Assembly: GCF_004912145.1 (NCBI RefSeq)
Contig: NZ_STGT01000009.1
Location: 1 to 64,000 of the forward strand
Length of the DNA: 64,000 bases
Direction: 5' to 3'
From: Peteryoungia rhizophila
Lineage (GTDB): Bacteria > Pseudomonadota > Alphaproteobacteria > Rhizobiales > Rhizobiaceae
Shown one piece after another: positions 122 through 62,612 of this stretch. The notes beneath the pieces were generated by a model that had not been told where the DNA came from, searched no databases, and worked only from the letters and a program-made list of their open reading frames with translations. Both the position numbers and the translations under genes were made by a program. Position 1 is the first letter of the stretch. Each line of letters begins with the position of its first letter.

Positions 122-646
122 TCAACTCGCAATACGCCCATAGGCACGTCTGTAATAGACCAATGCCTCCGCGTCATTGCCACCATGAATGCCTTCAACT
201 GTGCAGTATAACACCCGATGGGTGCCGATGTCGCACTGCTCGCTGATACGGCAGTCGAAGGAGACGAGGGCGTCGCTCAGCACAGGCGCGCCGGTAATTC
301 CACTCCTCCATTCGGCGGCAGCGAAGCGTTCGTCGACTGGCGTCTTGCCACCGAAGACCCCGGACAGCGCCTCGTGAGAGGATGAAAGTACGTTGACGCA
401 GACTATACCGTTCTGGGTGACGGCATCGAAGACGGATGCGGATCGGTTGAGGCAGATCAGCAGCGTTGCGGGACTGTCGGTGACGCTGCAGACGGCGGTC
501 GCGGCAAAGCCGGCGCGGCCGGCCGGACCGTCCGTCGTGATGATGTTCACGGCCGCGACCATTTTTGCCATCGCGTCCCGGAATGCCTCGCGGGTAATCG
601 GGGAGATGACGTCCAGGGGTTCGGCGAAACTGGGGATGCTGTTCAT
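122..646 (-). CDS. flavin reductase domain protein, probable FMN reductase partner of the RutA-type monooxygenase
   Basis: A 174-residue protein of the flavin-reductase-like (HpaC/RutF) family. Visible features are the N-terminal helix with [17 protein letters not shown], the [15 protein letters not shown] stretch that contacts flavin in this family, and the C-terminal pattern [13 protein letters not shown]...LVYYRRAYG. Such enzymes use NAD(P)H to reduce FMN, which diffuses to a two-component monooxygenase. The window holds exactly one such monooxygenase, the RutA-type gene at 8687, so I infer this is its reductase (a RutF equivalent). The start at 646 was chosen because GAGAGG lies 9 nt upstream; an ATG at 655 abuts that site. 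It is the last clear gene of a minus-strand operon running from the substrate-binding protein at 5990. Confidence 0.85.
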
Positions 647-692
647 CGTGGTCATCCTCTCTGGCTTTGGGATCGTCTTGTTGTCGGTAAGG

Positions 693-2111
693 TCATGCCG
701 CAGACCGTGTCCTTGTCGATGGAGTAAAGGCGGCAAGCGACAGGATTAGTTCGAGGCGGCGAGCAAGGCTCGCTGCAAGGTCCTCCCGCCAGGGCCTTGC
801 AATGATCTGGATGGCAATTGGGAGACCACCGGGCGAGACCGCAACGGGAAGCGTCACCACGGGCAGTCCGAGGAAGCTGAAGGGTCGGGTGAAGGAGGTC
901 ATGGCGCTGACCACCGCGTTCATCTTCGGGCTGGTGCCGATGTCGACCTCGCTGGACAGCGGAGGGAGGGCTGGCATCGCCGGTGCAATCAGGATGTCGG
1001 TATCGCCGAAGGCCTCATTGAGGAATGCTTCCAGTAAAACCGACCGCATCTGCAGCGCCCTGATGTAGATTGGCGCCGGGATGGCCAGTGACTGCGCCAA
1101 ACGCATGCGGATCTGGGGGCCGTAGTCTTCCGCGCTCTCTCGCATCCAGTCGAAATGGACAGTGCCGGCCTCGGCCATGGCGACGACATTGGCAAGTTCT
1201 GCGATCGACGGCATGTCGATGCCCTTGCTCATTCCAAGCGAGGCAACTTCATTCTCTAGGACATGCGCAGTTGTTTCGATCGCGGTGCCGACCGCATCGT
1301 CCAGTCCGCTTTCAAACTGGCCGCCGAGAATTCCGACGCGCAGTGCGCCAATCTCATCCATCAAAGGGGCGGGGCGTGGGACGGCCATGCATGTCGTGTC
1401 TCGACCGTCTGGTCCGGCGATCACCCTCAGGACGCGATAGGCGTCCTCCACCGTGCGGGCGAGTGGGCCGACGCAGTCCTGCGAAAAGGAGAGCGGCATC
1501 ACACCATGCCGGCTGACACGGCCCTGGGTCGGTTTGATGCAGACGATGCCACAGCAGGCTGCGGGCAGCCGAATGGATCCTCCTGTATCCGAGCCGAGTG
1601 CGGCTGTGACCACGCCACCGCCGACGGCCGAACCACTGCCCGATGACGATCCCCCGGTGATCCGCTCGGGATCGATCGGGTTCAAAGCCCGGCCGTAATG
1701 AAAGTTGTAACCAGTCGGACCCATCGCGAATTCGCTCATGTTGAGCCGTCCGATGGAGATTGCACCAGCTGCCTCCAGCCGTTGCATCACAGTCGAGGTT
1801 TCCGTGGCGACATGAGATTGCCTGATCTTCGATCCGCATCCGGTGACGAAGCCTTTGCGGTCATACATATCCTTGTGGGCAAGCGGGACGCCGTGCAATG
1901 GGCCCGTTGCTTGACCCCGCGCCAGCGCCTCGTCTGCCAGATGGGCCGCCCGCAATGCCGCTTCCTCTTCGATTTCGATGAAAGCGTTCAGTTGCTCGTG
2001 GCTCGATCTTGCGCGGTCGAGTGCCGCTCTGGTCAGCTCCACGGCGCTGATCCGGCGTTCTTTGACAGCGGCTGCCGCCTCCGCGAGCGAAAGGGGATCG
2101 TCGAGGCTCAT
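693..2111 (-). CDS. amidase signature family hydrolase (AtzE/GatA-like), paired with an AtzG-like small protein
   Basis: A 472-residue amidase-signature enzyme, the usual length. The Ser-cisSer-Lys triad is visible: Lys80 in PLAHKD, cis-Ser155 in TGGSSSGSG, and nucleophile Ser179 in DTGGSIRLP. It starts by ATGA overlap with the small AtzG-like gene, so the two are translationally coupled. That pairing is known for AtzE-AtzG (1-carboxybiuret hydrolase) and resembles GatA-GatC. The substrate is not readable. Within a RutA-type cluster, an open-chain amide or ureide from ring opening is the reasonable guess. Two further amidases in the cluster (9771 and 11327) are clearly different in sequence. 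Confidence 0.9.
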
Positions 2112-2311
2112 CGATCCGCCTCCGTCTGCAGTATGCGGTCGAAGGCTGCAGGTTCCACATTGAACAATGCGCCGTTCCGCCCTTCCGGAGCCGCAGCGAT
2201 CGCAGCGCTGTCCCTGCGCAATTCGCCAACCATGGCGACGAGTTCCGGATCAACGGCCGGTCGTCCCCAATAGGCTCGAGCGAGGGCCTTCATGACGTCT
2301 TCGATATCCAT
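2108..2311 (-). CDS. AtzG-like small protein (DUF4089 type)
   Basis: A 67-residue, mostly helical protein with a late NVEPAAF motif. Size, position directly before an amidase and that motif (compare the DVEPAP motif of AtzG) suggest the AtzG/DUF4089 family, GatC-like partners that wrap around and stabilise AtzE-type amidases. It overlaps the permease stop at one end (TGATG) and the amidase start at the other (ATGA), so it is tightly coupled. The assignment rests on size, context and weak similarity; a sequence profile search would settle it. Confidence 0.65.
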   Translation of the reverse strand: MDIEDVMKALARAYWGRPAVDPELVAMVGELRRDSAAIAAAPEGRNGALFNVEPAAFDRILQTEADR

Positions 2312-3321
2312 CAGCTGAAATCCTGCGGCTGCCGGTTTCGGACCAACTGGCTGAGCGAGACCGCGATCACCATCGCACCACCATAGAAAAGGTTCTGCAC
2401 ATAGGCATCTGCGCCCAGCATGGTCAGCCCGGTGATCCCCGTGACCAGGAAATAGACGCTGATCACGGCACCGAAGGCATTGAATCGCCCCGGAGAGATC
2501 GTCGTGGCGCCCAGGAAGGCGGCGGCGAAGGCCGGCAGCAGAAGGTTGAGGCCGGAAAGCGGATCGGCGGAACCGGTCATGCCGGCATAGAGCACGCCGG
2601 CAAAGGCCGAGATCAGGCCAGAGAGGACGAAGGAGGTCGCGCGGACGCGGTCGACATTGATGCCGTTCAGGCGTGACACTTCACGACCGCGACCGACGAA
2701 GAGCAGCTTGCGCCCCGGGATCGTGTATTCGAGCGCATACCAGATGATCGCAGCCAGGATCATGGCGTAGAAAAAGGCGAGCGGTATGCCGAGGAAGCGG
2801 TTGATGATAACCCATTCCACGAGGCCCATGGAGATGCCTGATATCGTCTGGCTGTTGCTGACCCAGAGGATCAGGCCATTGACGAAGGTGCCGATGCCGA
2901 GCGTCACGATCAGCGAATGAATGCGGAAATAAAGGACGAAGAATGCATTGGCCGCGCCGATGACGATGCCGCTTGCGAGCGCCACCAAGATCACGGGAAA
3001 GATCGGCCAGCCAAGCTTCACGTTCAAAACTGCAATCAGCATGCAGCTCATGGTGAGCGTGGAGGCGCCCGACAAGTCGAAATCGCCGGAGGTGAGTGGA
3101 AGGATGATCGCCAACGTCAGGACGACGAGGATGGCCTGAGATCCGAACAGGGTGGAGAAGCTGCGCCAACTCAGGAAAGACTCCGGCATCAGGAAGCCGA
3201 AGATCACAATCAGCAGCAGCCAGGCTGCGACGAGCGCGAAGCGTTCGACCTCTGTCTTGACCGTGAAGCGGCTCTTCGCCCGGGGGAGGGATTTAGTTGT
3301 CGGCATGTCGAGCGTCGTCAT
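2311..3321 (-). CDS. ABC transporter permease, RbsC type
   Basis: A 336-residue membrane protein of the branched-chain/ribose permease family (BPD_transp_2), with about 8-10 hydrophobic segments. The conserved loop in the second half (GRGREVSRLNGINVDRVR) precedes a run of small-residue helices (FVLSGLISAFAGVLYAG), as in RbsC. It should form the membrane channel with the ATPase at 3318-4865 and the binding protein at 4890-5990. It overlaps the ATPase by 4 nt (ATGA). RbsC-type permeases carry sugars, nucleosides and other polar ring compounds, so the family does not fix the substrate; the surrounding enzymes suggest a nitrogen ring compound or nucleoside. Confidence 0.9.
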   Translation of the reverse strand: MTTLDMPTTKSLPRAKSRFTVKTEVERFALVAAWLLLIVIFGFLMPESFLSWRSFSTLFGSQAILVVLTLAIILPLTSGDFDLSGASTLTMSCMLIAVLNVKLGWPIFPVILVALASGIVIGAANAFFVLYFRIHSLIVTLGIGTFVNGLILWVSNSQTISGISMGLVEWVIINRFLGIPLAFFYAMILAAIIWYALEYTIPGRKLLFVGRGREVSRLNGINVDRVRATSFVLSGLISAFAGVLYAGMTGSADPLSGLNLLLPAFAAAFLGATTISPGRFNAFGAVISVYFLVTGITGLTMLGADAYVQNLFYGGAMVIAVSLSQLVRNRQPQDFS

Positions 3322-4865
3322 TCTGCAGCCTCCGCTTGATGGCTGTGGAAACAGGCTTCGGTGATGGACTTGCGGGAGATCTCGGAACCCTTGAGCTCCA
3401 TGACCGGGCGTCCGCGGGAGAAGACGATGATCCGATCACAGATCTGTTCGAGCTGTTCGTTGTCTGTCGAGGCGCAGAGGATAGCCGTACCCCCAGCCGC
3501 GGCCTGATCGAGCGCCTTGAAGATTTGCTGGCGAGCGCCGAAATCGACGCCCTGGGTTGGCTCGTCGAGCATCAGCAGATTGGGTTTGATCTGCAGCCAC
3601 TTTGCCAGCAGGACCTTCTGCTGGTTGCCCCCCGACAACGAGCCGAGCGGCAGTTGCGGGTCCTGGGGACGGACGTCGTAGACTTGGGCCAGGCGACCTG
3701 CTTCTCTCACCATCCAGCCACGATCGAGCCCATAAGGCTTGAGCAGCCCTTCCAGAACCGGGAGGGTGATATTGTCTGTCACCGACAGACTGCCGATACC
3801 GGCAGATCCTAGTCGGTCTCCCGGCAGAAAGGCGATGCCGAGTTTCTGCGCCAGAAGAGGGGTGATGGCGGATAGGGCAAGGCTCTGGCCGCCGATCGAG
3901 ATCGTGCCTGTGCCACGCAGCGCGCCGTAAAGCAGATAGGGCACAGAAGCGAAGCCCGAACCGATGAGGCCGGTCACTCCGAGGGTCTCGCCCTCACGGA
4001 TCTCGAAATCGAAGCCTGGGGACCTGCCGTCGCTCAGATCGCGGACACGAACGGCGGCGGGAATGCCATCCGTTGCCATCCGATCCTTTTGAAAGTGATC
4101 GATTCGCGTACCGACGATCGTATCGAGAATAGACTGGCGTTCGGCTGTTCGGGTGTCGAGGATGTCGACGAGTTCGCCATCCCGCAGAACGGCGACGCGG
4201 TCGGTGATATCCCTCACCTCGTCGATGTCGTGGGTGACGATGACGACCGAAGCTCCGGACCTGACGATAGAGCGGATCAGCGTGAACAGCCGCTGAACGT
4301 CTTCGGCAGGCAGGAAAGGTGTCGGCTCGTCGAGCACCAATATGCCCTCACCGCCATAGCCGGCATCCGAGGCGCGCAGATCTTCGAACGCCCTGACAAT
4401 GGCGACGAAGGCGCGTTCAACCGGTGCCAGGCTGGCAATGGTGCAATAGGGGTCGATGTCGAGGCCGAATTCGGCGAAAAGAGCCGAGATCGTCTGTGCT
4501 TCCCGCTTCCAGTTCACGCCCCATGGCGTCTTCTGCCCGAGCGCAGTCACCCGCATGTTCTCGAGGACGGTCAGCGAGGGAACGAGGCCGAGATGCTGGT
4601 GGACGAAGGCCACGCCACGCTTCTTGATATCCATCGGGTCAAGCGGCAGGGGCAGCGTCTGGCCCCAAAGGACCACTTCGCTGCCCTCTTCCGGCTGGTG
4701 GAAGCCCGCGAGAACCTTGATCATCGTCGACTTGCCCGAGCCGTTCTGCCCGAGCAGGCCGAAGACTTCGCCGCGGCGGATGGAAAGCGATACGCCCTTG
4801 AGCGCGTAGTAGCTCCCGAACCGCATGCGAATGTTGTTCATCCTGAGCACAGCATTCTCGGTCAT
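3318..4865 (-). CDS. ABC transporter ATP-binding protein, RbsA type (two ATPase domains)
   Basis: A 515-residue cytoplasmic ATPase with two fused nucleotide-binding domains, as in RbsA. The first has Walker A GQNGSGKST (about 38-46), and Walker B VLDEPT. The second has the degenerate GLIGSGFAS P-loop, signature LSGGNQQK and LMLDEPTQGVD, the usual asymmetric pattern. It energises the permease that follows it by a 4-nt overlap. It belongs to the minus-strand operon controlled from the 5991-6270 region. Confidence 0.92.
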   Translation of the reverse strand: MTENAVLRMNNIRMRFGSYYALKGVSLSIRRGEVFGLLGQNGSGKSTMIKVLAGFHQPEEGSEVVLWGQTLPLPLDPMDIKKRGVAFVHQHLGLVPSLTVLENMRVTALGQKTPWGVNWKREAQTISALFAEFGLDIDPYCTIASLAPVERAFVAIVRAFEDLRASDAGYGGEGILVLDEPTPFLPAEDVQRLFTLIRSIVRSGASVVIVTHDIDEVRDITDRVAVLRDGELVDILDTRTAERQSILDTIVGTRIDHFQKDRMATDGIPAAVRVRDLSDGRSPGFDFEIREGETLGVTGLIGSGFASVPYLLYGALRGTGTISIGGQSLALSAITPLLAQKLGIAFLPGDRLGSAGIGSLSVTDNITLPVLEGLLKPYGLDRGWMVREAGRLAQVYDVRPQDPQLPLGSLSGGNQQKVLLAKWLQIKPNLLMLDEPTQGVDFGARQQIFKALDQAAAGGTAILCASTDNEQLEQICDRIIVFSRGRPVMELKGSEISRKSITEACFHSHQAEAAE

Positions 4866-4889
4866 CGCGCCGCTCCCGATGTGGCTGGG

Positions 4890-5990
4890 TTACTTCAGCA
4901 TCCAGAGCTTGCGGAAACCCTCGAGATGAGCGTCGCCGTAGCCATCGTCGAAGTTGGCAGGCACCCCTGCGGTCTCGATGTTATCCTTGTCGAAGACCAG
5001 GAGCGGCACATTGAGCTTGGCCACTTCCGGCTTGCCGCACAGCATCCGCATGATGTTGTCGATGGCTGCATATCCGGCCCAGCCAAGGCTCTCGCCGATA
5101 TCCATCTCGACCTGTCCTTCGCGCACCATGTCCAGCACGAAGGGCGTACCGTTGAAGCTCGCAACCTTCACCGAGCCTTCAGAGCCGGTGATGCGCAATG
5201 CGGGCACGACGAACTGCGACATCGAATCGTAGATCGGCAGGATGTAGTTGATCGAGGGGTCGGCCAGCAGCGCCGACTGGGTGCCCGACTGGATCTTCGT
5301 TGCCCATTCGGAAACCGGCACGTCGAGATGCGTCTGCTTGCAGTCCGGGCAGAGCGCCTTGAGTTGGTCCTGGATGGACTGGACGAAAGGAATTGACGGC
5401 AGCACATCAGAGGAGCCGATGATCAGTACGTTCGGCTTGCCTTCGGTCTGCGCATAGGCCCAGGCAGCGAGCAACTTGCCCGCGCCAGTGAAGTCGACTT
5501 TGCCGGAATAGTCGACGCTCTCCACAGCCGGCTGGGTCACGTCGTAGAAATGGGTGGTGCTGATCTTGAGGCCAGCGGCGCGTGCCTCGGAGAGCTGCGG
5601 CCCCAGCACTTCCGGATTGAGGCCCCCGGCAAGGTCGACCACGTCATAGTCCTGGCTGATCGCCTGGGAAATCCCCTGAACCCACTGGTCGAGTTTCAGC
5701 TGGTTGTCCCAGGTCGTGTAGGTGAAGCCAACTTCGGCCGCTGCCGAGGCCATCGCCTTCTGAAGCTCCACATTGAACGGGATCGTCATCGAGATCGGGA
5801 TCGACAGAACCTTCTTGTCCGCCATGCAGGCCTTGGCATCGAAGGGTTCGCCAGGTGCGGCGAAGACCGGCATGGCGCGGTGCGCTTCGATGATGGCCTT
5901 TGCATCGGCCATGGGATCTGCGGCGGCTGGCGTGGAGGCGACCGCAAGTGTGGATGCGGCCAAAAGCGAACTGGCAAGAATGAGGCGCAT
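4890..5990 (-). CDS. periplasmic substrate-binding protein, RbsB-like type
   Basis: A 366-residue exported protein. The signal peptide is residues 1 to about 24 (MRLILASSLLAAS...AAADP), and the mature part has the type I periplasmic-binding fold typical of sugar-type importers (PISMTIPFNVELQKAMASAAAEVG; LIIGSSDVLPSIPFVQ). The start at 5990 was chosen over an upstream ATG at 6032 because it gives a clean signal peptide and has AGGGGA 9 nt upstream. It is the first gene of the importer-amidase-reductase operon. The substrate is unknown; a ring ureide or nucleoside-like molecule is inferred from the neighbours. Confidence 0.88.
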   Translation of the reverse strand: MRLILASSLLAASTLAVASTPAAADPMADAKAIIEAHRAMPVFAAPGEPFDAKACMADKKVLSIPISMTIPFNVELQKAMASAAAEVGFTYTTWDNQLKLDQWVQGISQAISQDYDVVDLAGGLNPEVLGPQLSEARAAGLKISTTHFYDVTQPAVESVDYSGKVDFTGAGKLLAAWAYAQTEGKPNVLIIGSSDVLPSIPFVQSIQDQLKALCPDCKQTHLDVPVSEWATKIQSGTQSALLADPSINYILPIYDSMSQFVVPALRITGSEGSVKVASFNGTPFVLDMVREGQVEMDIGESLGWAGYAAIDNIMRMLCGKPEVAKLNVPLLVFDKDNIETAGVPANFDDGYGDAHLEGFRKLWMLK

Positions 5991-6064
5991 GATTGACGTT
6001 CCCCTGTCTCTAACCCGGTTTTCCGGTGTCATCTGATGCGGTTCTCGATGACCGCTCGTAGATA

Positions 6065-6076
6065 ATGTACGTACAT
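6065..6076. promoter_or_regulatory. probable GntR operator, site 1 (upstream of the importer operon)
   Basis: A perfect 12-bp palindrome, ATGTACGTACAT, 75 bp upstream of the substrate-binding protein start. It shares its core with three other sites at 6244, 7521 and 8637, which flank every transcription unit of this cluster and its GntR regulator. GntR/HutC-family regulators commonly bind such GT...AC palindromes. Confidence 0.65.
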
Positions 6077-6243
6077 AGTCAGCCGAACGTCAATCGTGTT
6101 TTGCCTATTTTTTTGCACTGCACATTTATTCAGCGAATGCCGAAAACCCTTTCAGTCAGGCGATCGAATCGCGATCAACTGGGCGCAGCTCGTCCCCAGC
6201 AGGCGCGCGATCTCGCACGTGCAGCATCGATGAGTGCCGAGTG

Positions 6244-6259
6244 ATATGTCAGTACATAT
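6244..6259. promoter_or_regulatory. probable GntR operator, site 2
   Basis: A 16-bp inverted repeat (ATATGT, 4 nt, ACATAT) between the MFS gene and the importer operon. It matches site 1 except at the centre. Being about 180 bp upstream of site 1, it could support looping or upstream occlusion of the same promoter. Confidence 0.5.
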
Positions 6260-6270
6260 GGTGAGAGTTG

Positions 6271-7491
6271 TTATCGGCTGGCCGTATGCGCGCGCCAGGC
6301 GATCAAGCAGCCAGCGAAGCCGAAGAGGGCAAAGATCATGAAGCTGGCGCCATAGTGTCCCGTCAGTGCATAAACGCTGCCGAATGACGAGGGCCCTACG
6401 ATCACCCCGATGAAAGTGTAGACAAGCACGCCGCCGGTGATCGAGCCGACCCGTCCCTCCGGAGCATTGTGGGCCACCTCGGCGAGCAGCACGCCGTTCC
6501 ATCCGATGGTGACCCCACCCATGGCGACGAAAAGCGCCACCTGCGCGATCGTTGGCAGATCGGTCAGCCAGAACAGCAGGGCATAACCGGTGCCGCCCAG
6601 CAATCCGAGCAGGGCGAGTGTCTTGAACCCGCCACCGATCCTGTCGGCGACCACACCCCAGAAAATGCGCCCGACCGCGCCGGCAAGCTGCATGGCTGCT
6701 GCAACAGAGCCAGCCGAAAGAAGCGACCATCCGGCGTCATGCACGAGCGTTACGACGGCAAATGCCGAGACGGACAGTTGCATGGCTGAATAGGCAAAGC
6801 CGAGAGCCGACAGCGCCCTCAGTCGCGGATTGCGCCAGATCGTCGACTGCTCCTCCGCGAAGCCCTTCAAAAAAGACCGCCTTGGCGCCGGATTGACCGG
6901 CTCCGCTGCATGCGTCGCGGCCAGAAGCGCCATCGTCAGGATCGGGGCGACGGCGCCGATGAGCAGCGCGACGTGCCAGTCGAAGAAGCGCGTGAGAAAC
7001 GGAAAGGCAAAGCTCGCAAGGATGCCGCCGAGTGGCACGCCCGACTGCTTCAGGGAGAAGACGATATTGCGTCTGTTCAAGGGGGTGACCCGGCTCAGCA
7101 TTTCCGAGGAGGCGGGATTGTTGAGCCCGTAGCCGATGCCGATGAAGAGGGAGGCGGCGATGATCAGCGGGATCTTAGCGCTCGCAATGCCGACAAAGCC
7201 CAGCACGAAACAGGCGAGAGCGGCCTGTTCGATCCGGATTGGGCCGAAGCGCTGAACCAGCGTCCCGGCAATCGCCGAAGAAAACATCCCGGAGAAGTAG
7301 ATCAGGCTGATCTGGTAGCCGATCCAGTAGGCCCCGATATCTAGATCTTTCGCCACCGTGGGCGCAATCGCGGTCAGCGCGAGCACGCTTGCCGTCGCGA
7401 CGATCTGTATCAGTGTGGCCGCAATCAAGGTCTGGGTAAGCGAGGAGGCGTGTCGCGCGGGTGGCGCCTCTTCGGCGATGAAGTCAGACAT
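6271..7491 (-). CDS. MFS transporter
   Basis: A 406-residue major facilitator with about 12 membrane segments. A typical MFS loop follows the second helix (AGTLVQRFGPIR), and the second half has a matching VADRIGGGFK loop. The proline/glycine-rich helix in the first half (FSLKQSGVPLGGILA) is common in oxoacid and cyanate/NNP-like carriers. It is transcribed away from the GntR gene, with an operator-like site (7521) in the shared region, so it is probably in the same regulon as the RutA-type genes. It could import the substrate or export an intermediate. Confidence 0.85.
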   Translation of the reverse strand: MSDFIAEEAPPARHASSLTQTLIAATLIQIVATASVLALTAIAPTVAKDLDIGAYWIGYQISLIYFSGMFSSAIAGTLVQRFGPIRIEQAALACFVLGFVGIASAKIPLIIAASLFIGIGYGLNNPASSEMLSRVTPLNRRNIVFSLKQSGVPLGGILASFAFPFLTRFFDWHVALLIGAVAPILTMALLAATHAAEPVNPAPRRSFLKGFAEEQSTIWRNPRLRALSALGFAYSAMQLSVSAFAVVTLVHDAGWSLLSAGSVAAAMQLAGAVGRIFWGVVADRIGGGFKTLALLGLLGGTGYALLFWLTDLPTIAQVALFVAMGGVTIGWNGVLLAEVAHNAPEGRVGSITGGVLVYTFIGVIVGPSSFGSVYALTGHYGASFMIFALFGFAGCLIAWRAHTASR

Positions 7492-7520
7492 ATGGTGCTG
7501 TCTCGGAGGATGTGGCTAGG

Positions 7521-7536
7521 ATATGTACGTACTAAT
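7521..7536. promoter_or_regulatory. probable GntR operator, site 3 (between MFS and GntR genes)
   Basis: ATATGTACGTACTAAT lies 30 bp upstream of the MFS start and 150 bp upstream of the GntR start. It contains the same TATGTACG core as the other three sites, and its right half (ACTAA) is repeated in site 4. The position suits both autoregulation and control of the MFS gene. Confidence 0.6.
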
Positions 7537-7685
7537 TGATTTGGTGAAGGATCGCAAGCCGGTGCTGCGGCCTGCTTCGATCTCCCGAATTCCATTTGCC
7601 TTTTGCCGGGAAAGGAGGTTGAAACTCTGGCACGAGGAACTCGGCGTTGCGCCGATGGGGATGGTTGAGCTTGGATCAGAAGCGC

Positions 7686-8429
7686 ATGGACTGGAAGCCG
7701 GAAGTGGACACCGCGCCGCTCTACCTGCAGGTCGCCCATCATCTAGAGAGCCGGATCAGCGACGGCGAGTTTCCGGTCGGATCGCTTCTGCCCACGGAAA
7801 ACGAGATCGCAGCCGCTCTCGGCGTTAGCCGCCAGACCGTGCGTCAGGCGATAGCAACGCTTCGCAACAAGGGGCGCCTTTCCGCCCGCAAGGGCGTGGG
7901 CACGCGCGTTGAGGCGGGGTTCGACCCGGAGAAGAAGCGCTTCATCGCCCATTCGCGTTCGGAGCTGTTCGAGATCGCCGCCGAAACGGAATTCGTGATC
8001 GATACCAAGGAAGAGATCTCCGCGCAGGGCAAGCTTGCCGTCGAGCTCGGCTGCCGGCCCGGGCGCAAGTTCTTCCACATGGCCGGTATCCGGTATCCCG
8101 GCAATCGCAGCCGCCCGTTCTCGTGGAATGAGGTCTATGTCGACGCCAAGCTGGCTGCTGCCGTGAAGGACATCACGGTCGCCCGCAGCGCCATCTTTCA
8201 CTATATCGAGCAGTACACGGGGGAGAAGATCCAGGAAATCCAGCAGGACATCCGCCCGATGATCCTCGACGCCGAGATTGCCGCCAAGCTCGATGTCAAG
8301 GCAGGCGATCTGGCGCTGGTCGTCACTCGACGCTACTTCGGCTCCGGCCGCCGCCTGCTGGAATACGCCTTCCAGGTGCTTCCGGCAGAGCGCTTCACCT
8401 TCACCACGACGCTTCGCGCCGAAGGCTGA
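7686..8429 (+). CDS. GntR-family (HutC/UTRA) transcriptional regulator
   Basis: A 247-residue regulator. It has an N-terminal winged helix (PLYLQVAHHLESRI...LLPTENEIAAALGVSRQTVRQAI), then a UTRA ligand-binding domain ending in the family pattern LLEYAFQVLPAERFTF. UTRA regulators are usually repressors released by a pathway metabolite. The ATG at 7686 was chosen because the winged helix begins right after it; a TTG at 7647 would only add a non-conserved leader. The gene sits in the middle of the cluster, and four related palindromes surround it, so it is the obvious local regulator. Confidence 0.9.
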   Translation: MDWKPEVDTAPLYLQVAHHLESRISDGEFPVGSLLPTENEIAAALGVSRQTVRQAIATLRNKGRLSARKGVGTRVEAGFDPEKKRFIAHSRSELFEIAAETEFVIDTKEEISAQGKLAVELGCRPGRKFFHMAGIRYPGNRSRPFSWNEVYVDAKLAAAVKDITVARSAIFHYIEQYTGEKIQEIQQDIRPMILDAEIAAKLDVKAGDLALVVTRRYFGSGRRLLEYAFQVLPAERFTFTTTLRAEG

Positions 8430-8636
8430 GCCTCCCCTTTTCTCATCATAGATCCATGGCCACCAGCAGCGCTCTTGGGCGCTGATGGCGTTTCCGCGTC
8501 CTGTTTTGCCTACAGATCGTCCGTTTGAACGGTTGCTCGGCAACTCCGCCCTGCGCGCGATTCCGGCGAATGATCGAAAAATATGCAGGCCTAAAGATCA
8601 GGCATTTTTGGCTGGACAGCCTCAAAAATTTTTGCA

Positions 8637-8652
8637 TTAGTTCGTACATACT
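8637..8652. promoter_or_regulatory. probable GntR operator, site 4 (upstream of the RutA-type operon)
   Basis: TTAGTTCGTACATACT ends 34 bp before the monooxygenase start. Read on the minus strand it is TATGTACGAACTAA, differing from site 3 at one of 14 positions. It lies where it would cover the promoter of the plus-strand enzyme operon. No convincing -35/-10 pair was picked out here. Confidence 0.6.
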
Positions 8653-8686
8653 GCTTGCGTGTAGGTCATACTAAAAGGGGAACCAC

Positions 8687-9769
8687 ATGGATATCGGTGT
8701 CTTCATTCCTATCGGAAACAACGGCTGGCTGATCTCGACAGCGTCGCCGCAATACATGCCGAGCTTCGAGCTCAACAAGCAGATCGTCCAGAAAGCGGAA
8801 AGCTACGGCCTCGACTTCGCCCTCTCGATGATCAAGCTGCGCGGCTTCGGTGGCAAAGCCGAATTCTGGGACTATAACCTCGAGAGCTTCACGCTGATGG
8901 CGAGCCTCGCCGCCGTCACCGAGCGCATCAAGCTCTTCGCGTCTACAGCTGTTCTCACCCTGCCGCCGGCAATCGTCGCGCGCATGGCGACCACCATCGA
9001 CAACGTGGCGCCCGGTCGCTTCGGTGTGAACATCGTGTCCGGCTGGCAGATGGCGGAATACGACCAGATGGGCATCTGGCCGGGTGATGACTATTTCGGC
9101 TACCGCTACGACTATTCAACCGAATACGTGCACATCATGAAGGAGCTCTGGGCGAACGGCAGCTGCAGCTTCGAAGGCAAGCACTTCACCATGAAGGATT
9201 GCATGATGAAGCCGATGCCGGCGAACAAGATCGAGATCGTGGCAGCGGGCCAGAGCCCCCGCGGCATGGAGTTCGCCGCTGAATATGCGGACTACAACTT
9301 CGTCATGGGTTCCGGCATCAACACGCCGACTGCCTATGCCCCCAACAACCAAAAGCTCCTCGATGCCGCCGCGAAGACAGGCCGTGACGTCGGCGCCTAT
9401 GTCCTCTTCATGGTGATCGCTGACGAGACGGACGAGCTGGCCGAGGCGAAGTGGCAGAAGTATCGCGCAGGTGCTGATGTCGACGCGCTGGCCTGGATGG
9501 CGGATCAGGGTAGCAAGGACGCATCGGCGGACGCCAATTCGACCGCCAAGCACATCAACCTCCCCGAAGGGGCGGTCAACTTCAATATGGGCACGCTGGT
9601 CGGCTCCTATGCGAAGGTCGCCCGCATGCTGGACGAGGCGGCGGATGTGGCGGGTACAAAGGGCATCATGCTGACCTTTGACGACTTCCTTATCGGTCTC
9701 GATCAGTTCGGCGAGCGTGTCCAGCCGTTGATGGCAAGCCGCGCACCCAAACAGATCGCGGCGGAATGA
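8687..9769 (+). CDS. rutA: RutA-type flavin-dependent pyrimidine monooxygenase
   Basis: A 360-residue luciferase-fold enzyme that follows E. coli RutA closely along its length: [62 protein letters not shown] and LTFDDFL. RutA uses reduced FMN and O2 to open the uracil ring through a flavin-N5-oxide or peroxide type intermediate. It needs a separate flavin reductase, which is present at 122-646. A strong ribosome binding site (AAGGGG) precedes the ATG. It leads a plus-strand operon with two amidases, a lyase and a cysteine hydrolase. Uracil or thymine is the default substrate, but the unusual downstream genes leave room for another pyrimidine-like ring. Confidence 0.9.
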
Positions 9770-9770
9770 C

Positions 9771-11330
9771 GTGACGGCGACTCAGCCTGCATCTGTTGGC
9801 AATCCCCGCCCAGCGGCGGGGATCAACTTCGATCCGATGACACTGGCAGACCCCACCCATGTCGACCGCGTTCATCGCGATGCGGTGTTGTCGGAAGTGG
9901 ATCCTGCTTCGGTGGCTCTGCCGCCGGCGCGGGCTCCGCTGAAGAATCACCCGGTCGCAGCCGGGGTGACCGAGTTGCTCTCGGCCTATTCCAGTGGCAG
10001 CTTGCAACCGTCGCAACTTCTTGACCAGCTCAAGGCGCGCATTGAAGCTGCCCGGACGGGAGGAGAAGCAGTTCTCCGCTTCGCTCCAGACGCCGAACAG
10101 GCTGCGCGAGAGAGCGATCGGCGCATTGCCGAGGGTCGTGCGCGACCGCTGGAAGGCATCCCCTTCGGTGTCAAGGATATCATCGATGTTGCGGGTACCA
10201 TGGTTACCTCAGGCTCTCACTTCACGGGTGACCGTGTCGCGGCCGTCGATGCGCCGGTGGTGGCAGCCCTGCGTGCTGCCGGTGCGATTCCCTTCGCAAT
10301 CACTGCGACCACCGAGTTCGCGACCGGATCGCCGGACAATCCACGCTACGGCACCGTCACCAATCCGCATGACCGTCGTCGCTGGACGGGCGGATCCTCG
10401 ACAGGGTCCGGAGCCGCCCTCGCTGCTCGGCTGATGCCGCTTGCGCTCGGCACGGATACGGGAGGGTCGATCCGCGTCCCCTCCTGCTGGTGCGGCACAA
10501 CGGGGTTGAAGCCAAGCCGTGAACTGATCTCTCGGCAGGGTGTCGCTCCCCTTTCCTGGACCCTTGATCATGTCGGTCCGATGGCGCGCTCGGCCGAAGA
10601 TATCGCCCGCGTTCTGCCATTCATGCTGCACGGCGGTGGAGGGCGGCTGGCAAGCGAAATCGCCGCGCTGTTGACCAACGGCCCCGTCCGGAGCCTGAGG
10701 CTTGGCGTTCCCGTCAACTGGTTCACCGAGAAGGTCGACCAACGCGTGCTCGCCAATTGGCAGGCCGCCCTGGGACAGTTCGAGGCCCTCGGATGTCAAT
10801 TGGTGCCGCTGCCGCGAATCGAGGTAGAGCCCTTGCATGAGGCCGGTTGGGTCATCCTTCAGAGCGAGCTGGCGAGCCTTCATGCGGCCCGTCTTGACCG
10901 CGCCGAACTCTTCGATCCAGGCCTCCTGCATCGTCTGAAGAACGGGCTGGGCTACTCGGCCCGTGACTATGGCGAAGCACTTCAGCGTCGGACTGAGGCA
11001 CTTGAGGCATTCCTGACCGCCATGCGCGACATCGATGCGGTGATCACACCGGGCCTCGGTGGCGAAGCCGGCCATCTCGATGATCTCACCGTCGATATCG
11101 ATGGCGAACGCCACGCATTCCAGACAGTCATTTCACGCAACACGATGATCTTCGATGTGACGGGCCTGCCGGCGCTCATGGTGCCGTCGGGTGTCGGTTC
11201 AACCGGCTTGCCGACCGGCATCCAAATCGTCGGTCACCCCGGGGGAGATGCGCTTTGCCTGAGGCTTGGGAAGGCTTTTCAGGAGGTGACGGATTTCCAC
11301 CGGATGATGCCGCCAGAGGATGCCCTATGA
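9771..11330 (+). CDS. amidase signature family hydrolase (long form)
   Basis: A 519-residue amidase. The catalytic residues are Lys135 (GVKDIID), cis-Ser209 (TGGSSTGSG) and Ser233 (DTGGSIRVP). It has about 60 extra N-terminal residues compared with the other two amidases here. The GTG start lies one base after the monooxygenase stop, so translation is coupled. In AtzF/allophanate hydrolase the amidase domain is followed by a second domain, which this protein lacks. It probably hydrolyses an amide made by ring opening, but the bond is not predictable. Confidence 0.88.
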   Translation: MTATQPASVGNPRPAAGINFDPMTLADPTHVDRVHRDAVLSEVDPASVALPPARAPLKNHPVAAGVTELLSAYSSGSLQPSQLLDQLKARIEAARTGGEAVLRFAPDAEQAARESDRRIAEGRARPLEGIPFGVKDIIDVAGTMVTSGSHFTGDRVAAVDAPVVAALRAAGAIPFAITATTEFATGSPDNPRYGTVTNPHDRRRWTGGSSTGSGAALAARLMPLALGTDTGGSIRVPSCWCGTTGLKPSRELISRQGVAPLSWTLDHVGPMARSAEDIARVLPFMLHGGGGRLASEIAALLTNGPVRSLRLGVPVNWFTEKVDQRVLANWQAALGQFEALGCQLVPLPRIEVEPLHEAGWVILQSELASLHAARLDRAELFDPGLLHRLKNGLGYSARDYGEALQRRTEALEAFLTAMRDIDAVITPGLGGEAGHLDDLTVDIDGERHAFQTVISRNTMIFDVTGLPALMVPSGVGSTGLPTGIQIVGHPGGDALCLRLGKAFQEVTDFHRMMPPEDAL

Positions 11331-12634
11331 CATCGCACGCCCCTGTCACACCGGATCTCACAGCGCTCACGGCAACCGAGGCCCTCTCCCTGATGGCGGA
11401 TGGGCGTCTGACGTCGCGCGCGCTCGTTTCGGACTGCCTCGAACGGATCCATGATCGAGATGCCGATGTCAGGGCCTGGCTAGCACTCAGCGAAACGGCA
11501 CTAGCACAGGCCGACCTTTGCGATGCCGCCCCGAAGGCCGAGCGTGGCAGGCTTCACGGTCTGCCAATCGGGGTGAAGGATGTCTTCGATACATCAGACC
11601 TTCCCACCACGCACAATTCGCCACTCTTTCAAGGCTTCCAGCCTGCCGCAGACGCGGCCGTGGTCGATCTTCTGCGCAGCGAAGGCGCCATCATTCTCGG
11701 CAAGACCGATACGACGGAATTCGCGGCCGCCGGTTGTGATGCGGCAACCGCCAATCCTCACGACCTCGCGCACACCCCCGGAGGTTCGTCTGCGGGCTCG
11801 GCCGCAGCCGTAGCCGACATGCACGTGCCGCTGGCGCTTGCGACGCAGACGGGCGGTTCGACGATCCGGCCCGCCTCCTTTTGTGGGGTCGTCGGCTTCA
11901 AGCCGAGCTTCGGCCGGGTAAGTCGCGAAGGCGCAAAGATCTACGCGCAGAGTTTCGATACCGTCGGCTGGTTTGGCCGTTCGGTGGATGACGTAGCACT
12001 GCTCGCGTCTGTGCTCGGGCTCGATGAAGCGCTGGAGTCGGCTGACTTGCCGGGCAAGGTCAGGATTGCGATCACGCCTGGGCCCTATCGCGAGCGCCTG
12101 AAACCCGAGAGCCTCTTAGCTCTTGACTTCTCGAAGCAGCGGCTCGAAGCGCGGGGCCATTCAGTGCAGTCCATCGACCTGCCGACCGAATTCGAAGCTC
12201 TCGACAGCCACCACCGCGTGATCCTTCACCGGGAGGGGCAGGCATCCTTCCGCAATCTGGCGCGACGCCATGGAAGCCTCCTGCACGATGATTTCCACCA
12301 CCGGGTCGAAAATCGCGATGGCTCCAGCCTTCGGAACCTCGCACAGGCCTATGATGCTATGGCGCTCGGACGCATCGCATTTGACGCCTTGATGCAGGAC
12401 TTCGACATCCTGATCGCTCCGAGCGCACCTGGTTTTGCACCGCTCGGACGCCGCCCGGGGGATCCGGTCTTCAATGCCTCCTGGACGCTTCTCGGCGTCC
12501 CCTGTCTCAATATCCCGGTGCCGCTTGGCCATCCCTCTCTCCCGATCGGTGTCACGCTGATCGCCGCGCGCTTCGCCGACAAACATCTGCTCGATGTCGC
12601 GCGGCAGCTCGAACCCGTCCTCAATCCGAGATGA
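11327..12634 (+). CDS. amidase signature family hydrolase (short form)
   Basis: A 435-residue amidase with Lys84 (IGVKDVFD), cis-Ser154 (PGGSSAGSA) and Ser178 (TQTGGSTIRP). The usual TDTGGSI reads TQTGGST here, seen in a subset of the family. It starts by ATGA overlap with the previous amidase, which fixes the start at 11327. Sequence divergence from its two neighbours argues for a different substrate rather than recent duplication. It shares the operon with the RutA-type enzyme. Confidence 0.88.
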   Translation: MTSHAPVTPDLTALTATEALSLMADGRLTSRALVSDCLERIHDRDADVRAWLALSETALAQADLCDAAPKAERGRLHGLPIGVKDVFDTSDLPTTHNSPLFQGFQPAADAAVVDLLRSEGAIILGKTDTTEFAAAGCDAATANPHDLAHTPGGSSAGSAAAVADMHVPLALATQTGGSTIRPASFCGVVGFKPSFGRVSREGAKIYAQSFDTVGWFGRSVDDVALLASVLGLDEALESADLPGKVRIAITPGPYRERLKPESLLALDFSKQRLEARGHSVQSIDLPTEFEALDSHHRVILHREGQASFRNLARRHGSLLHDDFHHRVENRDGSSLRNLAQAYDAMALGRIAFDALMQDFDILIAPSAPGFAPLGRRPGDPVFNASWTLLGVPCLNIPVPLGHPSLPIGVTLIAARFADKHLLDVARQLEPVLNPR

Positions 12635-12650
12635 AAGCAGCAGACGAAAC

Positions 12651-13517
12651 ATGCCCGATCCCACTTTGAAGCAGCGGCTCACCGACGGCGAGTTCATCCT
12701 GGCGCCTGGGATCTACGACATGATCTCGGCTCTGATCGCAGACCAGATGGGCTTCAAGGCGCTCTATGTCACAGGATATGGAACGGTCGCCTCTACCCTC
12801 GGCATTCCAGATGCGGGCATTGCCACCTATCGCGACATGATCGAGCGTATTGCGCAGATGGTGAAGCTCACCCATACGCCTGTCATCGCCGATGCGGATA
12901 CCGGTTATGGCGGACTGCTCAATGTTCGGCACACCGTTCGGGGGTATGAAGAGGCCGGCGTCTCGGCCATCCAGCTCGAGGATCAGGAATTCCCGAAGAA
13001 GTGCGGCCACACGCCCAATCGGCGCGTGGTGCCCATGGCGGATATGGTGAAGAAGATCGAGGTTGCGGTCGATAGCCGGCGCAGCGACGATTTCCTGATC
13101 ATCGCCCGTACCGACGCCCGCACGAGCCTTGGTCTCGACGAGGCGGTCCGCAGAGCGAAAGCCTATGCGGCGGCAGGTGCGGACATTCTTTTCGTGGAAT
13201 CACCTGAGAGTACCGAAGAGGTGAAGGCGATCGCCGAGGCCATGGACCGGCCACTGCTCGCCAATATGGTCAATGGCGGGCGTACCCCGCTTCTGCCGGC
13301 CTCTGCCTTGCAGGCGCTCGGCTACAGGATCGCCATCTATCCCGCCCTTGGCTTTCTCGCCCATGGTCACGCGCTGCGCCATGCCTATCAGGACCTGCTC
13401 GACAACGGCATCACGACCGATGCCGTGCCGCTTTACCCCTTCAAGGACTTCAACAGCCTGCTCGGTTTCGAGGACGTGTGGGCTTTCGAGAAGAAATTCG
13501 CCGAAACCGAGGACTGA
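12651..13517 (+). CDS. isocitrate lyase / PEP mutase superfamily C-C lyase
   Basis: A 288-residue TIM-barrel enzyme of the PEP mutase/isocitrate lyase superfamily. It has the metal-binding DADTGYG (81-87) and the KKCGH loop (116-120), whose Cys118 is the acid/base in members that cleave C-C bonds (methylisocitrate lyase, 2,3-dimethylmalate lyase). The motif argues for a lyase rather than a phosphonomutase. No such enzyme belongs to the known Rut pathway. Here it could split a branched malate-like acid left after deamination. It starts 16 nt after the amidase. Confidence 0.85.
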   Translation: MPDPTLKQRLTDGEFILAPGIYDMISALIADQMGFKALYVTGYGTVASTLGIPDAGIATYRDMIERIAQMVKLTHTPVIADADTGYGGLLNVRHTVRGYEEAGVSAIQLEDQEFPKKCGHTPNRRVVPMADMVKKIEVAVDSRRSDDFLIIARTDARTSLGLDEAVRRAKAYAAAGADILFVESPESTEEVKAIAEAMDRPLLANMVNGGRTPLLPASALQALGYRIAIYPALGFLAHGHALRHAYQDLLDNGITTDAVPLYPFKDFNSLLGFEDVWAFEKKFAETED

Positions 13518-13520
13518 GCC

Positions 13521-14144
13521 ATGACCGACGATCTCACCGCAAATTATGCCAAGGCCTATGACAACAGGATCGGTTTCGGCAAAAAGCCTGCGCTCATTCT
13601 GGTCGATTTCGTTCAGGCCTATTTCGAGCCGGAAAGCCCGCTCTATGCCGGCGTGGACGCCGCGCTTGCCAGCGCCCTGCGCATCCGTGAGAAGGCGCGG
13701 GAAAAGGCCATTCCCGTCATTCTTACGGGCGTGGTGCTCCATCCCAGTGGTCTGGATGGCGGGCGATTCTTCCAGAAGGCGAAACCGCTCGCCTGCTTCA
13801 CGGCCGGAAATCCGCTCGGAGCATGGCCGCAGGGGCTCGAACCGTTTCCGGACGAATTCGTCATCACCAAGCAGTATCCGAGCGCCTTCTTCGGGACGTC
13901 GCTTGCGCCGCTGTTGACCTCGATCGGCGTCGACAATGTCATTCTGACGGGCCTGACGACGAGCGGCTGCGTGCGGGCGAGCTGCGTCGATGCCATGTCG
14001 CACGGCTTCATCACCACGGTCGTCCGCGAGGCCTGCGGCGACCGGCATGCAGCGCCGCACGAGGCAAATCTTTTTGACATGAATGCAAAATATGCCGACG
14101 TCGTTTCCGAACGAGAGATCCTCGACTTCATCGCATCTCTTTAA
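13521..14144 (+). CDS. isochorismatase-fold cysteine hydrolase (RutB / N-carbamoylsarcosine amidase-like)
   Basis: A 207-residue cysteine hydrolase with the triad Asp29 (LILVDF), Lys117 (ITKQYPSAF) and Cys150 (LTTSGCVRAS). The opening NYAKAYDNRIGFG is typical of the N-carbamoylsarcosine amidase and maleamate amidohydrolase branch rather than of E. coli RutB itself. It starts 3 nt after the lyase stop and is the last gene of the operon. It may fill the RutB role (hydrolysis of ureidoacrylate) or hydrolyse a carbamoyl or maleamate-like amide. Confidence 0.82.
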   Translation: MTDDLTANYAKAYDNRIGFGKKPALILVDFVQAYFEPESPLYAGVDAALASALRIREKAREKAIPVILTGVVLHPSGLDGGRFFQKAKPLACFTAGNPLGAWPQGLEPFPDEFVITKQYPSAFFGTSLAPLLTSIGVDNVILTGLTTSGCVRASCVDAMSHGFITTVVREACGDRHAAPHEANLFDMNAKYADVVSEREILDFIASL

Positions 14145-14353: not shown

Positions 14354-14989
14354 TTACGCGGCGGCCGCGGATGCGCTCTGATCACACCGCATGCGATAGC
14401 GGATCAACTCCTCTATGGAGATGAGAGGGAGGCCGTGCAGTTCACAGAACACGACGAGATCGGGCAGCCTGGCCATGGTTCCGTCGTCATTTGCCACCTC
14501 GCAGATCACGCCGGACGGCTTCTTGCCGATCAACCGTGCGAGATCGACTGCAGCTTCCGTGTGGCCGGGGCGGCCCAAGACGCCATCAGGATGGGACCGC
14601 AGGGGAAAAACATGCCCCGGCCGAGCGAAGTCTTCGGCAGTCGATGACTTGTCCATCAGGGCGCGAACCGTCGTGGCGCGATCTGCGGCCGAGATTCCGG
14701 TCGTCGTGCCGTGGATGTAATCCACCGACACTGTGAAGGCCGTCTTCAGGTATTCCGTATTGTTCGGGACCATCAGCGGAATTCCGAGCGCATCGAGCCG
14801 GTCGCCTTCCATGGCGATGCAAACGAGCCCTCGGGCATGTTTCATCATGAAAGCGATGGTTTTAGACGTCACATGCTCGGAAGCGACGATGATGTCACCC
14901 TCGTTCTCGCGGTCCTCGTCATCGACGACGACGACCATACCGCCGCGTGCAAGGGTTTCCAATGCGTCTTCAATAGTCGAAAGTGTCAT
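14354..14989 (-). CDS. ribB: 3,4-dihydroxy-2-butanone 4-phosphate synthase (riboflavin biosynthesis)
   Basis: A 211-residue stand-alone RibB, which converts ribulose 5-phosphate to formate and the four-carbon unit of riboflavin. Diagnostic motifs are DDEDRENEGD near the N-terminus, SVDYIHGTTTGISA, DFARPGHVFPL and GHTEAAVDL. There is no GTP cyclohydrolase II domain, so it is not RibBA. The start at 14989 has AAAGG upstream. An FMN riboswitch lies in the leader. The 209 bases between this gene and the cluster to its left show no convincing gene. Confidence 0.95.
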   Translation of the reverse strand: MTLSTIEDALETLARGGMVVVVDDEDRENEGDIIVASEHVTSKTIAFMMKHARGLVCIAMEGDRLDALGIPLMVPNNTEYLKTAFTVSVDYIHGTTTGISAADRATTVRALMDKSSTAEDFARPGHVFPLRSHPDGVLGRPGHTEAAVDLARLIGKKPSGVICEVANDDGTMARLPDLVVFCELHGLPLISIEELIRYRMRCDQSASAAAA

Positions 14990-15106
14990 TCCATTGCCTT
15001 TCAAGGGTCACCGCGTCAGCGGCCAAACCACGACCTTGCGGTCGCCATCCATCCCTTGGGCGAACACAGCACACACGTCTCCCGGCAAGGGAGGCGCCAT
15101 GGCCGG

Positions 15107-15244
15107 TGCTCTCTTTCATCCGGACTGTGACCGTCGGCTCCGGCATCGCACCGGATCTGCTGCCTTCCACCGAAGTGAAAGCGCTCGCGGGCTCCCGGCT
15201 TCGCCGGATACCGCCGGTGGGGAGTTTCACCCCGCCCTGAGAAC
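15107..15244 (-). promoter_or_regulatory. FMN riboswitch (RFN element) in the ribB leader
   Basis: Read on the minus strand, the sequence has all conserved RFN blocks in order: TCTCAGGGCGGGGTGAAA, CCCCACCGGCGGTA, AGCCCGCGAGCG, CAGCAGATCCGGTG, CCGGAGCCGACGGT, AGTCCGGATG and AGAGA. It lies about 120 nt upstream of ribB. An 8-bp hairpin follows at 15076-15096 with no U-run after it, so control may act on translation or through Rho rather than an intrinsic terminator. Confidence 0.97.
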
Positions 15245-15348
15245 CCCTTCAAGGTAGGAGATTGGATACCGACTTTTCAAGCGCAAACTGAGCAGATGCA
15301 GCAAAATTGCAAGTCTTGTCGCTTGGTTGCCACGCGACGTCGCGAAAC

Positions 15349-16195: not shown

Positions 16196-16212
16196 GGGTC
16201 GTTCTCCTGCAA

Positions 16213-17706: not shown

Positions 17707-17727
17707 GGCGCTGTCTTCCGGTCGTGA

Positions 17728-18663: not shown

Positions 18664-18781
18664 GGTAGATCTCCTCCGTTGTTTCGGCACCCCGCTACCA
18701 CCGCAGGACCGAAGTTTTGCCTGGCATTTGCCGGGCGGTGAACTGGCGACAATGCCGCCAAACTGAACCGCAGCCGAGCCA

Positions 18782-19756: not shown

Positions 19757-19773
19757 CCGCTCCTCCCATGCTG

Positions 19774-19797
19774 ATACCAGATCGATAGCGCTGGTAT
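19774..19797. promoter_or_regulatory. inverted repeat upstream of the sugar transport operon
   Basis: ATACCAG and CTGGTAT are separated by 10 bp, 18 bp upstream of the permease start. It could be an operator for the SorC-type regulator at 23299 or an mRNA hairpin in the leader. It does not match the palindrome at 23265 in sequence. Confidence 0.4.
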
Positions 19798-19896
19798 AAA
19801 TATTCATTGCTGTGTGTAAATTCGTAACGCAGGGATCGTTAGGCTGTCAACTACCGATGTCGTGAGGTTTCGAAGATTTAATTTCAGCAATGCGCC

Positions 19897-19926
19897 TTGA
19901 CAGGCGAAGCTGAGATGCAATTATAT
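19897..19926 (+). promoter_or_regulatory. candidate sigma-70 promoter of the transketolase-kinase operon
   Basis: TTGACA (19897-19902) is followed 17-18 nt later by an AT-rich hexamer (ATTATA/TTATAT, 19920-19926). The -10 overlaps an upstream ATG at 19925, which argues that translation starts instead at 19961, where TGAGG lies 5 nt upstream. Confidence 0.5.
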
Positions 19927-55215: not shown

Positions 55216-55226
55216 GAGCAGGATCC

Positions 55227-60216: not shown

Positions 60217-60303
60217 GGTGTCGACCTTGATGGTTGAGGAGCGTATCGGCATTCGTCTCTGCCGGAACGCCTCAGCCGCTCCCTTTATCGGCAGAGGCCT
60301 TGT

Positions 60304-60921: not shown

Positions 60922-60938
60922 GGGCGTGCCGTTTCCCT

Positions 60939-62612
<1,674 letters not shown>

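Follow-up and report, generated by a model that had tools for sequence, protein, structure and literature searches.

RutA uses oxygen to cleave a stable ring amide, a reaction that to our knowledge is known only from uracil and thymine use. In the Rut pathway of Escherichia coli (rutABCDEF) it proceeds by a published flavin-N5 mechanism, and Thr105 of RutA is one of the two side chains that hold the dioxygen (PMC10005588). A RutA-family gene in a different setting, here called rutA2, was found in Peteryoungia rhizophila, at positions 122-14144 of a stretch of 64,000 bases (the window: bases 1-64000 of contig C20, NZ_STGT01000009.1; genome 5.24 Mb, 20 contigs). Its cluster has in common with the Rut pathway a RutA-family monooxygenase over the equivalog cut-off, a RutF-like reductase and an isochorismatase-fold hydrolase. 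It differs in that RutB, RutC and RutD are absent and in that its RutA lies outside the canonical clade and has Ser at position 105, and it contains in addition three amidases, a small gene, a lyase, a CUT2-type ATP-binding cassette (ABC) importer, a major facilitator superfamily (MFS) carrier and a GntR regulator. A different ring compound is probable because the partner enzymes are other ones and the cluster has its own importer and switch. On balance, we favour the reading that these genes form an inducible unit for the catabolism of a non-uracil nitrogen ring compound, opened by RutA2.

Parts of the cluster resemble other described systems. In cyanuric acid catabolism AtzE requires a small partner, AtzG (PMC6219798), and amidase 1 of the cluster, which is AtzE-like, likewise follows an overlapping small gene; it scores under the AtzE cut-off, however, and neither AtzD nor AtzF occurs among the cluster genes. 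The hydrolase shares its cysteine hydrolase fold and a GCVR stretch with NicF maleamate amidohydrolase and N-carbamoylsarcosine amidohydrolase (CSHase), but its setting is RutA2, not a pyridine dioxygenase. The lyase has the KKCGH stretch and the ICL/PEP-mutase superfamily membership of the methylisocitrate lyase / 2,3-dimethylmalate lyase family, whereas its score is below the PrpB cut-off, no hydratase gene is found in the cluster, and it is accessory across relatives. Stepwise removal of the nitrogen of a uracil-like ring by hydrolases is also seen in lumichrome degradation (LumH, LumI and LumM), where the ring is opened hydrolytically and without a RutA-type monooxygenase (PMC12746152). 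Among the matches listed from the open-licence literature (titles and abstract openings) no such cluster was described, and the matches on trigonelline were of no help with it.

RutA2 and canonical RutA

The RutA2 protein of the window passes the RutA equivalog model TIGR03612 (627.2 bits, cut-off 498.3). The same applies to all 81 RutA2 proteins compared, each with E <= 6e-150, the value computed as the equivalent of the bit cut-off. Since all of them are over the cut-off, the label 'pyrimidine utilization protein A' would fall, in this sample, on a group without adjoining RutB, RutC or RutD. The genome has a second rutA on contig C14, 62% identical to RutA2 of the window and followed by rutB, rutC, rutD and rutF (rutC and rutF assigned from translations, RutB and RutD by scores over cut-off). 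This operon is separate from the cluster, and on that ground a broken or partial rut operon was rejected as an explanation of the latter.

The neighbours separate the two types, under thresholds that were not equal: RutB adjoins 39 of 41 canonical-type rutA loci at >=45% identity (the exceptions are L190 and L195), whereas RutB, RutC and RutD were found beside none of 80 RutA2 loci at >=40% identity over >=100 residues, these being the best 80 of at least 565 confirmed stretches. In a tree of 135 RutA rows, made by a quick method without bootstrap, E. coli RutA and 38 canonical-type rows form a clade (Shimodaira-Hasegawa-like approximate likelihood ratio test, SH-aLRT, 99) and the window protein falls outside it. 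The smallest well-supported set that holds the latter has 32 rows, namely the Rhizobiaceae-type proteins and the ill-placed L107, a very long row at the drawn root. The claim of the sequence-only reading, made from the letters of the window, that this RutA-type unit is distinct from the uracil operon agrees with the neighbours, the tree and the separate C14 operon.

The dioxygen site itself is largely shared. The RutA-type motif taken from the literature (L65, T/S105, N134, V136 and F224; PMC10005588, PMC7662398, PMC8234197) is found in the window protein as L, S, N, V and F, its site residues being Leu46, Ser86, Asn115, Val117, Trp120 and Phe205. The position that matches Thr105 of E. coli is Ser in 80 of the 81 RutA2 proteins, against Thr in 38 of the 41 canonical-type rows (two, L191 and L195, have Ser; one was unread).

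A RutA match at E <= 1e-100 was present in 25 of 297 genomes of the family sample, and 14 of them have a window-type gene, 13 at 86-100% identity and one at 73%. RutB and RutD are over their cut-offs in the same eight of these 14 genomes and neither is in the other six; matches below cut-off are present in all 14. At E <= 1e-120 a RutA match occurs in 27 of 398 genomes sampled across the phylum, and only two of these, the genome itself and G020, have one of >=73%. The closest named relatives by RutA, among the matches listed, are Rhizobium sp. TH135 (98%) and an Allorhizobium assembly (97%).

Gene order and twin elements in relatives

The cluster consists of two divergent, densely packed units. 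The leftward unit reads mfs, binding protein, ATPase, permease, small gene, amidase 1 and rutF-like, and is covered up to this last gene, beyond which the contig begins; the rightward unit reads gntR, rutA2, amidase 2, amidase 3, lyase and hydrolase. All genes that the sequence-only reading had named are present and intact, in the place and order given there, and its statement that RutC and RutD are lacking holds for the cluster genes that were scanned with profiles. It had overlooked the small gene at 2108-2311 and two operator-like elements.

With our own gene calls, the order F-am1-perm-atp-sbp-mfs / gntR-A-am2-(am3)-(lyase)-hydrolase recurs across the named relatives, so that it is no chance arrangement. 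In thirty Rhizobiaceae-type loci (L049-L078) the reductase, amidase 1, permease, ATPase and binding protein were each found 28 times, mfs and gntR each 29 times, and rutA 29 times at a threshold of 85% (the one in L075, at a rounded 85, is just short of it). Amidase 2 is present in 27, the hydrolase in 24, amidase 3 in 19 and the lyase in 12 of the thirty; four loci (L051, L053, L054 and L077) end at contig ends before the hydrolase and others are also cut, so that absences there weigh little. From these occurrence counts the core is RutA2, the reductase, amidases 1 and 2, the hydrolase and the importer; amidase 3 and the lyase are accessory. The cluster is a real one that recurs within one family and has a patchy distribution outside it. 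Peteryoungia aggregata LMG 23059 (L062), for instance, has all of it. Reduced versions are found in Lichenifustis (L087; hydrolase-lyase-RutA2), in Neorhizobium galegae DS1499 (L075; RutA2-hydrolase) and in Methylobacterium (RutA2-amidase 2), and Bradyrhizobium BTAi1 has RutA2, hydrolase and lyase as consecutive genes, the other cluster genes being absent.

Some of the relatives have more than one such gene. N. galegae DS1499 has two RutA2 genes (L056 and L075), of which that of L075 (85%) lies beside tripartite ATP-independent periplasmic (TRAP) transporter genes and the hydrolase, with gntR and the twin element absent. In marine Rhodobacteraceae (L094, L102 and L084) the RutA2 clusters contain a second RutA-like gene, 60-64% identical to that of the window, with additional genes for a reductase, hydrolase, amidase and importer close by; the substrate may have two rings, or there may be two related ones.

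The operator-like element, the 16-base ATTAGTWCGTACATAY, occurs exactly twice in the window, between mfs and gntR and 36-51 bases upstream of rutA2; none turned up in 100 shuffles. Genome-wide, its 14-base core has one additional site, with one mismatch, on contig C16, inside a reading frame that by eye is glutathione-transferase-like. Allowing up to two mismatches per site, the site before rutA is present in 29 and both sites in 27 of the thirty loci. L075 is the only locus with neither, and by the thresholds used gntR is also absent there. We infer that the twin elements mark one local regulon under the GntR protein. As to the genes rutC, rutD and rutE, whose presence elsewhere under shared control the sequence-only reading had named as speaking against it, rutC and rutD do occur on C14, while co-regulation of that operon by the element was not seen because the exact element stands only at the cluster's two promoters; rutE elsewhere was not searched for.

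The small gene (67 residues) shares 1 base with the permease gene and 4 bases with amidase 1. A corresponding frame of 66-71 residues lies upstream of amidase 1 in all 28 amidase-1-holding loci of the thirty, although in L073 and L076 the match is the final part of a longer one. At the same place L083, L084, L094 and L102 have frames that are shorter (53-66 residues) and more distant, and none was found before amidase 1 in L095, L106 and the Novosphingobium-type loci. The relatives align in register (17 and 24 rows). No similarity was obtained with Pfam, with a PDB profile search or with hhalign against the genome's own GatC, and a Foldseek search of a model (mean predicted local distance difference test score, pLDDT, 81.6) against solved structures gave no match. 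By position the gene is AtzG-like and its product a possible small subunit; the comparisons of sequence and fold give no such likeness.

Proposed pathway and alternatives

The GntR protein would act as a repressor on the two operator copies and be freed by the compound or a product of it. The compound would be taken up by the CUT2-type ABC importer and the MFS carrier. The RutF-like reductase would supply reduced flavin mononucleotide (FMN) to RutA2, in which, by analogy with RutA, a flavin-N5 oxygen species would cleave a ring N-C(=O) bond. The amidases and the maleamate-amidase-like cysteine hydrolase would then release the nitrogen, the hydrolase presumably being the counterpart of RutB in the Rut pathway, and the methylisocitrate-lyase-like enzyme, where present, would split the resulting hydroxy-dicarboxylate. 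The putative substrate that fits best would be a ring with -CO-NH-CO- (a cyclic imide or ureide), for which a substituted pyrimidine and a 2,6-dioxopyridine are candidates. The earlier idea of a distinct pathway is thus borne out in part, by the separateness of the unit. What the analysis demonstrates is the gene content, its conservation, the place of RutA2 outside the canonical clade, the missing RutB, RutC and RutD and the conserved twin elements; the reactions, the action of the repressor, the order of the steps and the substrate are inferred.

The enzymes fit these roles to different degrees. The reductase is just short of the RutF model and 57% identical to the genome's own RutF. Among the three amidases pairwise identity is 31-35%, each having the K and GGSSxGS stretches, and the best solved relative of amidase 1 is a biuret hydrolase (6c62, 7.9e-74). 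The hydrolase had been called RutB-like in the sequence-only reading. This label has to be withdrawn and RutB as its identity is ruled out, since it is only 22.9% identical to the RutB of its own genome and scores 34 bits against a RutB cut-off of 378. Of the solved structures, an N-carbamoylsarcosine amidohydrolase and two isochorismatase-family entries, 4l07 and 3ot4, come closest to it; we take these two entries to be maleamate amidases. The E-values are 3e-39 to 26st and 1e-32 to 3ot4. It is similar to the NicF/CSHase family and carries the stretches VDF, TKQYPS and GCVR, presumably with the catalytic Asp, Lys and Cys. In the lyase KKCGH begins at residue 116 and PF13714 matches with 166 bits, in line with the ICL/PEP-mutase superfamily; its relatives adjoin, or lie within 4 kb of, leuC/leuD-type hydratases in four of the seven annotated plasmid loci read, and unannotated plasmid records yielded nothing informative. 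The lyase that the earlier reading had seen is present with its KKCGH, while final C-C cleavage as a general step does not hold, the gene being found in 12 of the thirty loci.

Relatives of the hydrolase and the lyase are also found in other company. On a plasmid of Novosphingobium capsulatum the hydrolase (70%) and the lyase (50%) occur together with a flavin adenine dinucleotide (FAD) monooxygenase and an arylmalonate-decarboxylase-family protein; another module has the hydrolase with genes of these types. In Agrobacterium rosae hydrolase and lyase lie in a module with a short-chain dehydrogenase/reductase (SDR) and an arylmalonate-decarboxylase-family protein, and strain BW5 has the same sequence clusters in the same neighbour order.

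More tentatively, RutA2 may represent a functionally new class of enzymes that open cyclic imides or ureides with oxygen. It would head an undescribed pathway in which the maleamate-amidase-like hydrolase receives half-amides and the C-C lyase of some species receives dicarboxylates, and public genomes would mislabel RutA2 as the uracil enzyme. If true, a sister group with other partners in several bacterial families would mean that RutA chemistry has been reused, and the equivalog model would name proteins for a pathway whose other genes are not adjoining. The importer, the putative sensor and the putative operators offer handles for finding the ligand, presumably a nitrogen compound of soil or plants.

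Several observations weigh against the favoured interpretation as a unit for a ring other than uracil. RutA2 could be the uracil enzyme in the six genomes in which no RutB or RutD is over cut-off, and amidase 3 and the lyase, to judge from their counts (19 and 12 of thirty), are not universal steps. In Kaistia and Acidisoma dihydropyrimidinase/hydantoinase-like genes follow RutA2, which would fit a ureide rather than an imide. The lack of RutE that the sequence-only reading had listed is not constant: a malonic semialdehyde reductase gene is present in the copies of Pararhizobium arenae (over cut-off) and Palleronia, and members of the P. arenae sequence cluster, themselves unscored, occur in six further loci; such an enzyme would be in keeping with an end product like that of uracil or thymine. 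In two Thioclava clusters RutA2 and amidases occur, but a hydrolase or lyase of this kind is missing from the stretches shown; on one of the two plasmids a hydrolase of the type lies far away. A RutA-like gene with Ser105 and a long branch (L191, genome G720) nevertheless has RutB and RutC as neighbours. Finally, RutA2 may be one clade or a grade, between which the unrooted tree does not tell. Taken together, the neighbours do not single out one substrate; common to them is a ring amide, ureide or imide, and half-amides are suggested as intermediates.

Some of these points would be explained by an alternative uracil or thymine route, in which RutA2 acts as RutA normally does, with the amidases and the cysteine hydrolase in place of RutB, RutC and RutD. 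The RutA equivalog score (627 against 498), the retained dioxygen-site residues, the malonic semialdehyde reductase of some relatives, the six genomes of 14 without RutB or RutD over cut-off, and the combination of Ser105 with RutB and RutC in L191 are all consistent with it. Nevertheless we consider it unlikely: eight of the 14 RutA2 genomes do have RutB and RutD over cut-off, none of these genes nor RutC stands at any of the 80 RutA2 loci, the cluster has its own importer and regulator, and the handling of ureidoacrylate is not known to need three amidases or a C-C lyase.

Less probable still is a hydantoin-type ring, opened by RutA2 at N3-C4 to an N-carbamoyl amino acid that the carbamoylsarcosine-amidase-like hydrolase would deaminate. 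Simple hydantoins are not known to require an oxygenase, this route leaves the C-C lyase unexplained, and two relatives of the hydrolase at about 50% identity (two records read of 105 matched) sit in nicotinate-type clusters. N-carbamoylsarcosine amidohydrolases are nonetheless among the nearest solved relatives of the hydrolase, hydantoinase/dihydropyrimidinase-like genes lie near RutA2 in two genera, Thioclava has an Asp/Glu-racemase-family gene, and in a Rhodospirillaceae metagenome-assembled genome (L105) a caprolactamase-alpha-family gene lies about 7 kb from RutA2. The nicotinate-type relatives, which adjoin genes annotated as nicD and 2,5-dihydroxypyridine dioxygenase genes, would rather fit a pyridine or 2-pyridone degradation ending, as in nicotinate catabolism, in maleamate-like and malate-like acids, as would the two modules with the FAD-monooxygenase and arylmalonate-decarboxylase-family genes, one of them with both hydrolase and lyase. 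Among the genes of the cluster, however, a xanthine-dehydrogenase-type hydroxylase and a ring dioxygenase are absent, and RutA acts on ring amides, so that we regard this origin as the least plausible one. The reading of a non-uracil ring amide, opened by RutA2, is the one that we retain.

Gene inventory and adjacent loci

The features of the cluster are collected in the table. The starts of the rutF-like gene, gntR, amidase 3 and the lyase are the likely ones from the translations, and amidase 2 runs 4 bases into amidase 3. The binding protein had no NCBIfam match in the profile scan, and a search with it gave merely weak sugar-binding relatives. A promoter scan found no promoter.

Table. Features of the RutA2 cluster (window positions)
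Feature	Position	Strand	Basis
RutF-like flavin reductase	122..646	-	TIGR03615 246.4 bits, cut-off 254.75; alternative start 655
Amidase 1, AtzE-like amidase-signature enzyme	693..2111	-	PRK09201/AtzE 379.9 bits, cut-off 461
Conserved small gene (67 residues) upstream of amidase 1	2108..2311	-	placed like AtzG/GatC; possible small subunit
CUT2-type (RbsC-like) ABC permease	2311..3321	-	profile scan
CUT2-type (RbsA-like) ABC ATPase	3318..4865	-	profile scan
Periplasmic substrate-binding protein, Peripla_BP_4	4890..6032	-	Pfam 86.2 bits
MFS carrier	6271..7491	-	profile scan
Operator-like element ATTAGTWCGTACATAY, between mfs and gntR	7521..7536	-	exact copy
GntR/HutC-type regulator	7686..8429	+	profile scan (from 7668); ATG at 7686 read from sequence
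Operator-like element ATTAGTWCGTACATAY, upstream of rutA2	8636..8651	+	exact copy
RutA2, RutA-family two-component FMN monooxygenase	8687..9769	+	TIGR03612 627.2 bits, cut-off 498.3
Amidase 2 (amidase-signature)	9771..11330	+	profile scans, motif
Amidase 3 (amidase-signature)	11327..12634	+	profile scans, motif
ICL/PEP-mutase superfamily C-C lyase, methylisocitrate-lyase-like, KKCGH	12651..13517	+	TIGR02317 (PrpB) 269.8 bits, cut-off 354.4
Isochorismatase-fold cysteine amidohydrolase, maleamate-amidase / carbamoylsarcosine-amidase-like	13521..14144	+	nearest solved relatives

Beside the cluster, on the opposite strand, lies ribB behind an FMN riboswitch (RF00050, 15104-15248, 110 bits), the two together spanning 14354-15248 (minus strand). 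As a regular member of the cluster it was rejected, in view of its strand, its own riboswitch and the absence of ribB from the homology listing of L049-L078. Genes annotated as ribB do occur inside the Thioclava RutA2 clusters, and ribB-like frames (32-33%) lie by the clusters of Thalassovita and Poseidonocella.

Further along the window, the genes at 15407-19807 (minus strand) look like a sugar or polyol locus; they encode another CUT2-type ABC importer and a PRK06114-type SDR oxidoreductase and diverge from a transketolase-type gene at 19925. A biuret-type cluster (53186-59117, plus strand) has a BiuH gene over the cut-off (56240-56917; 427 against 370 bits) and a second BiuH-like protein below it (58452-59117; 259 bits); between and ahead of these lie a gene of the formamidase family and genes for a B6-like ABC transporter. 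Histidine utilisation genes follow at 59479-62612 (minus strand), with a HutC-type repressor and urocanate hydratase, both over their cut-offs.

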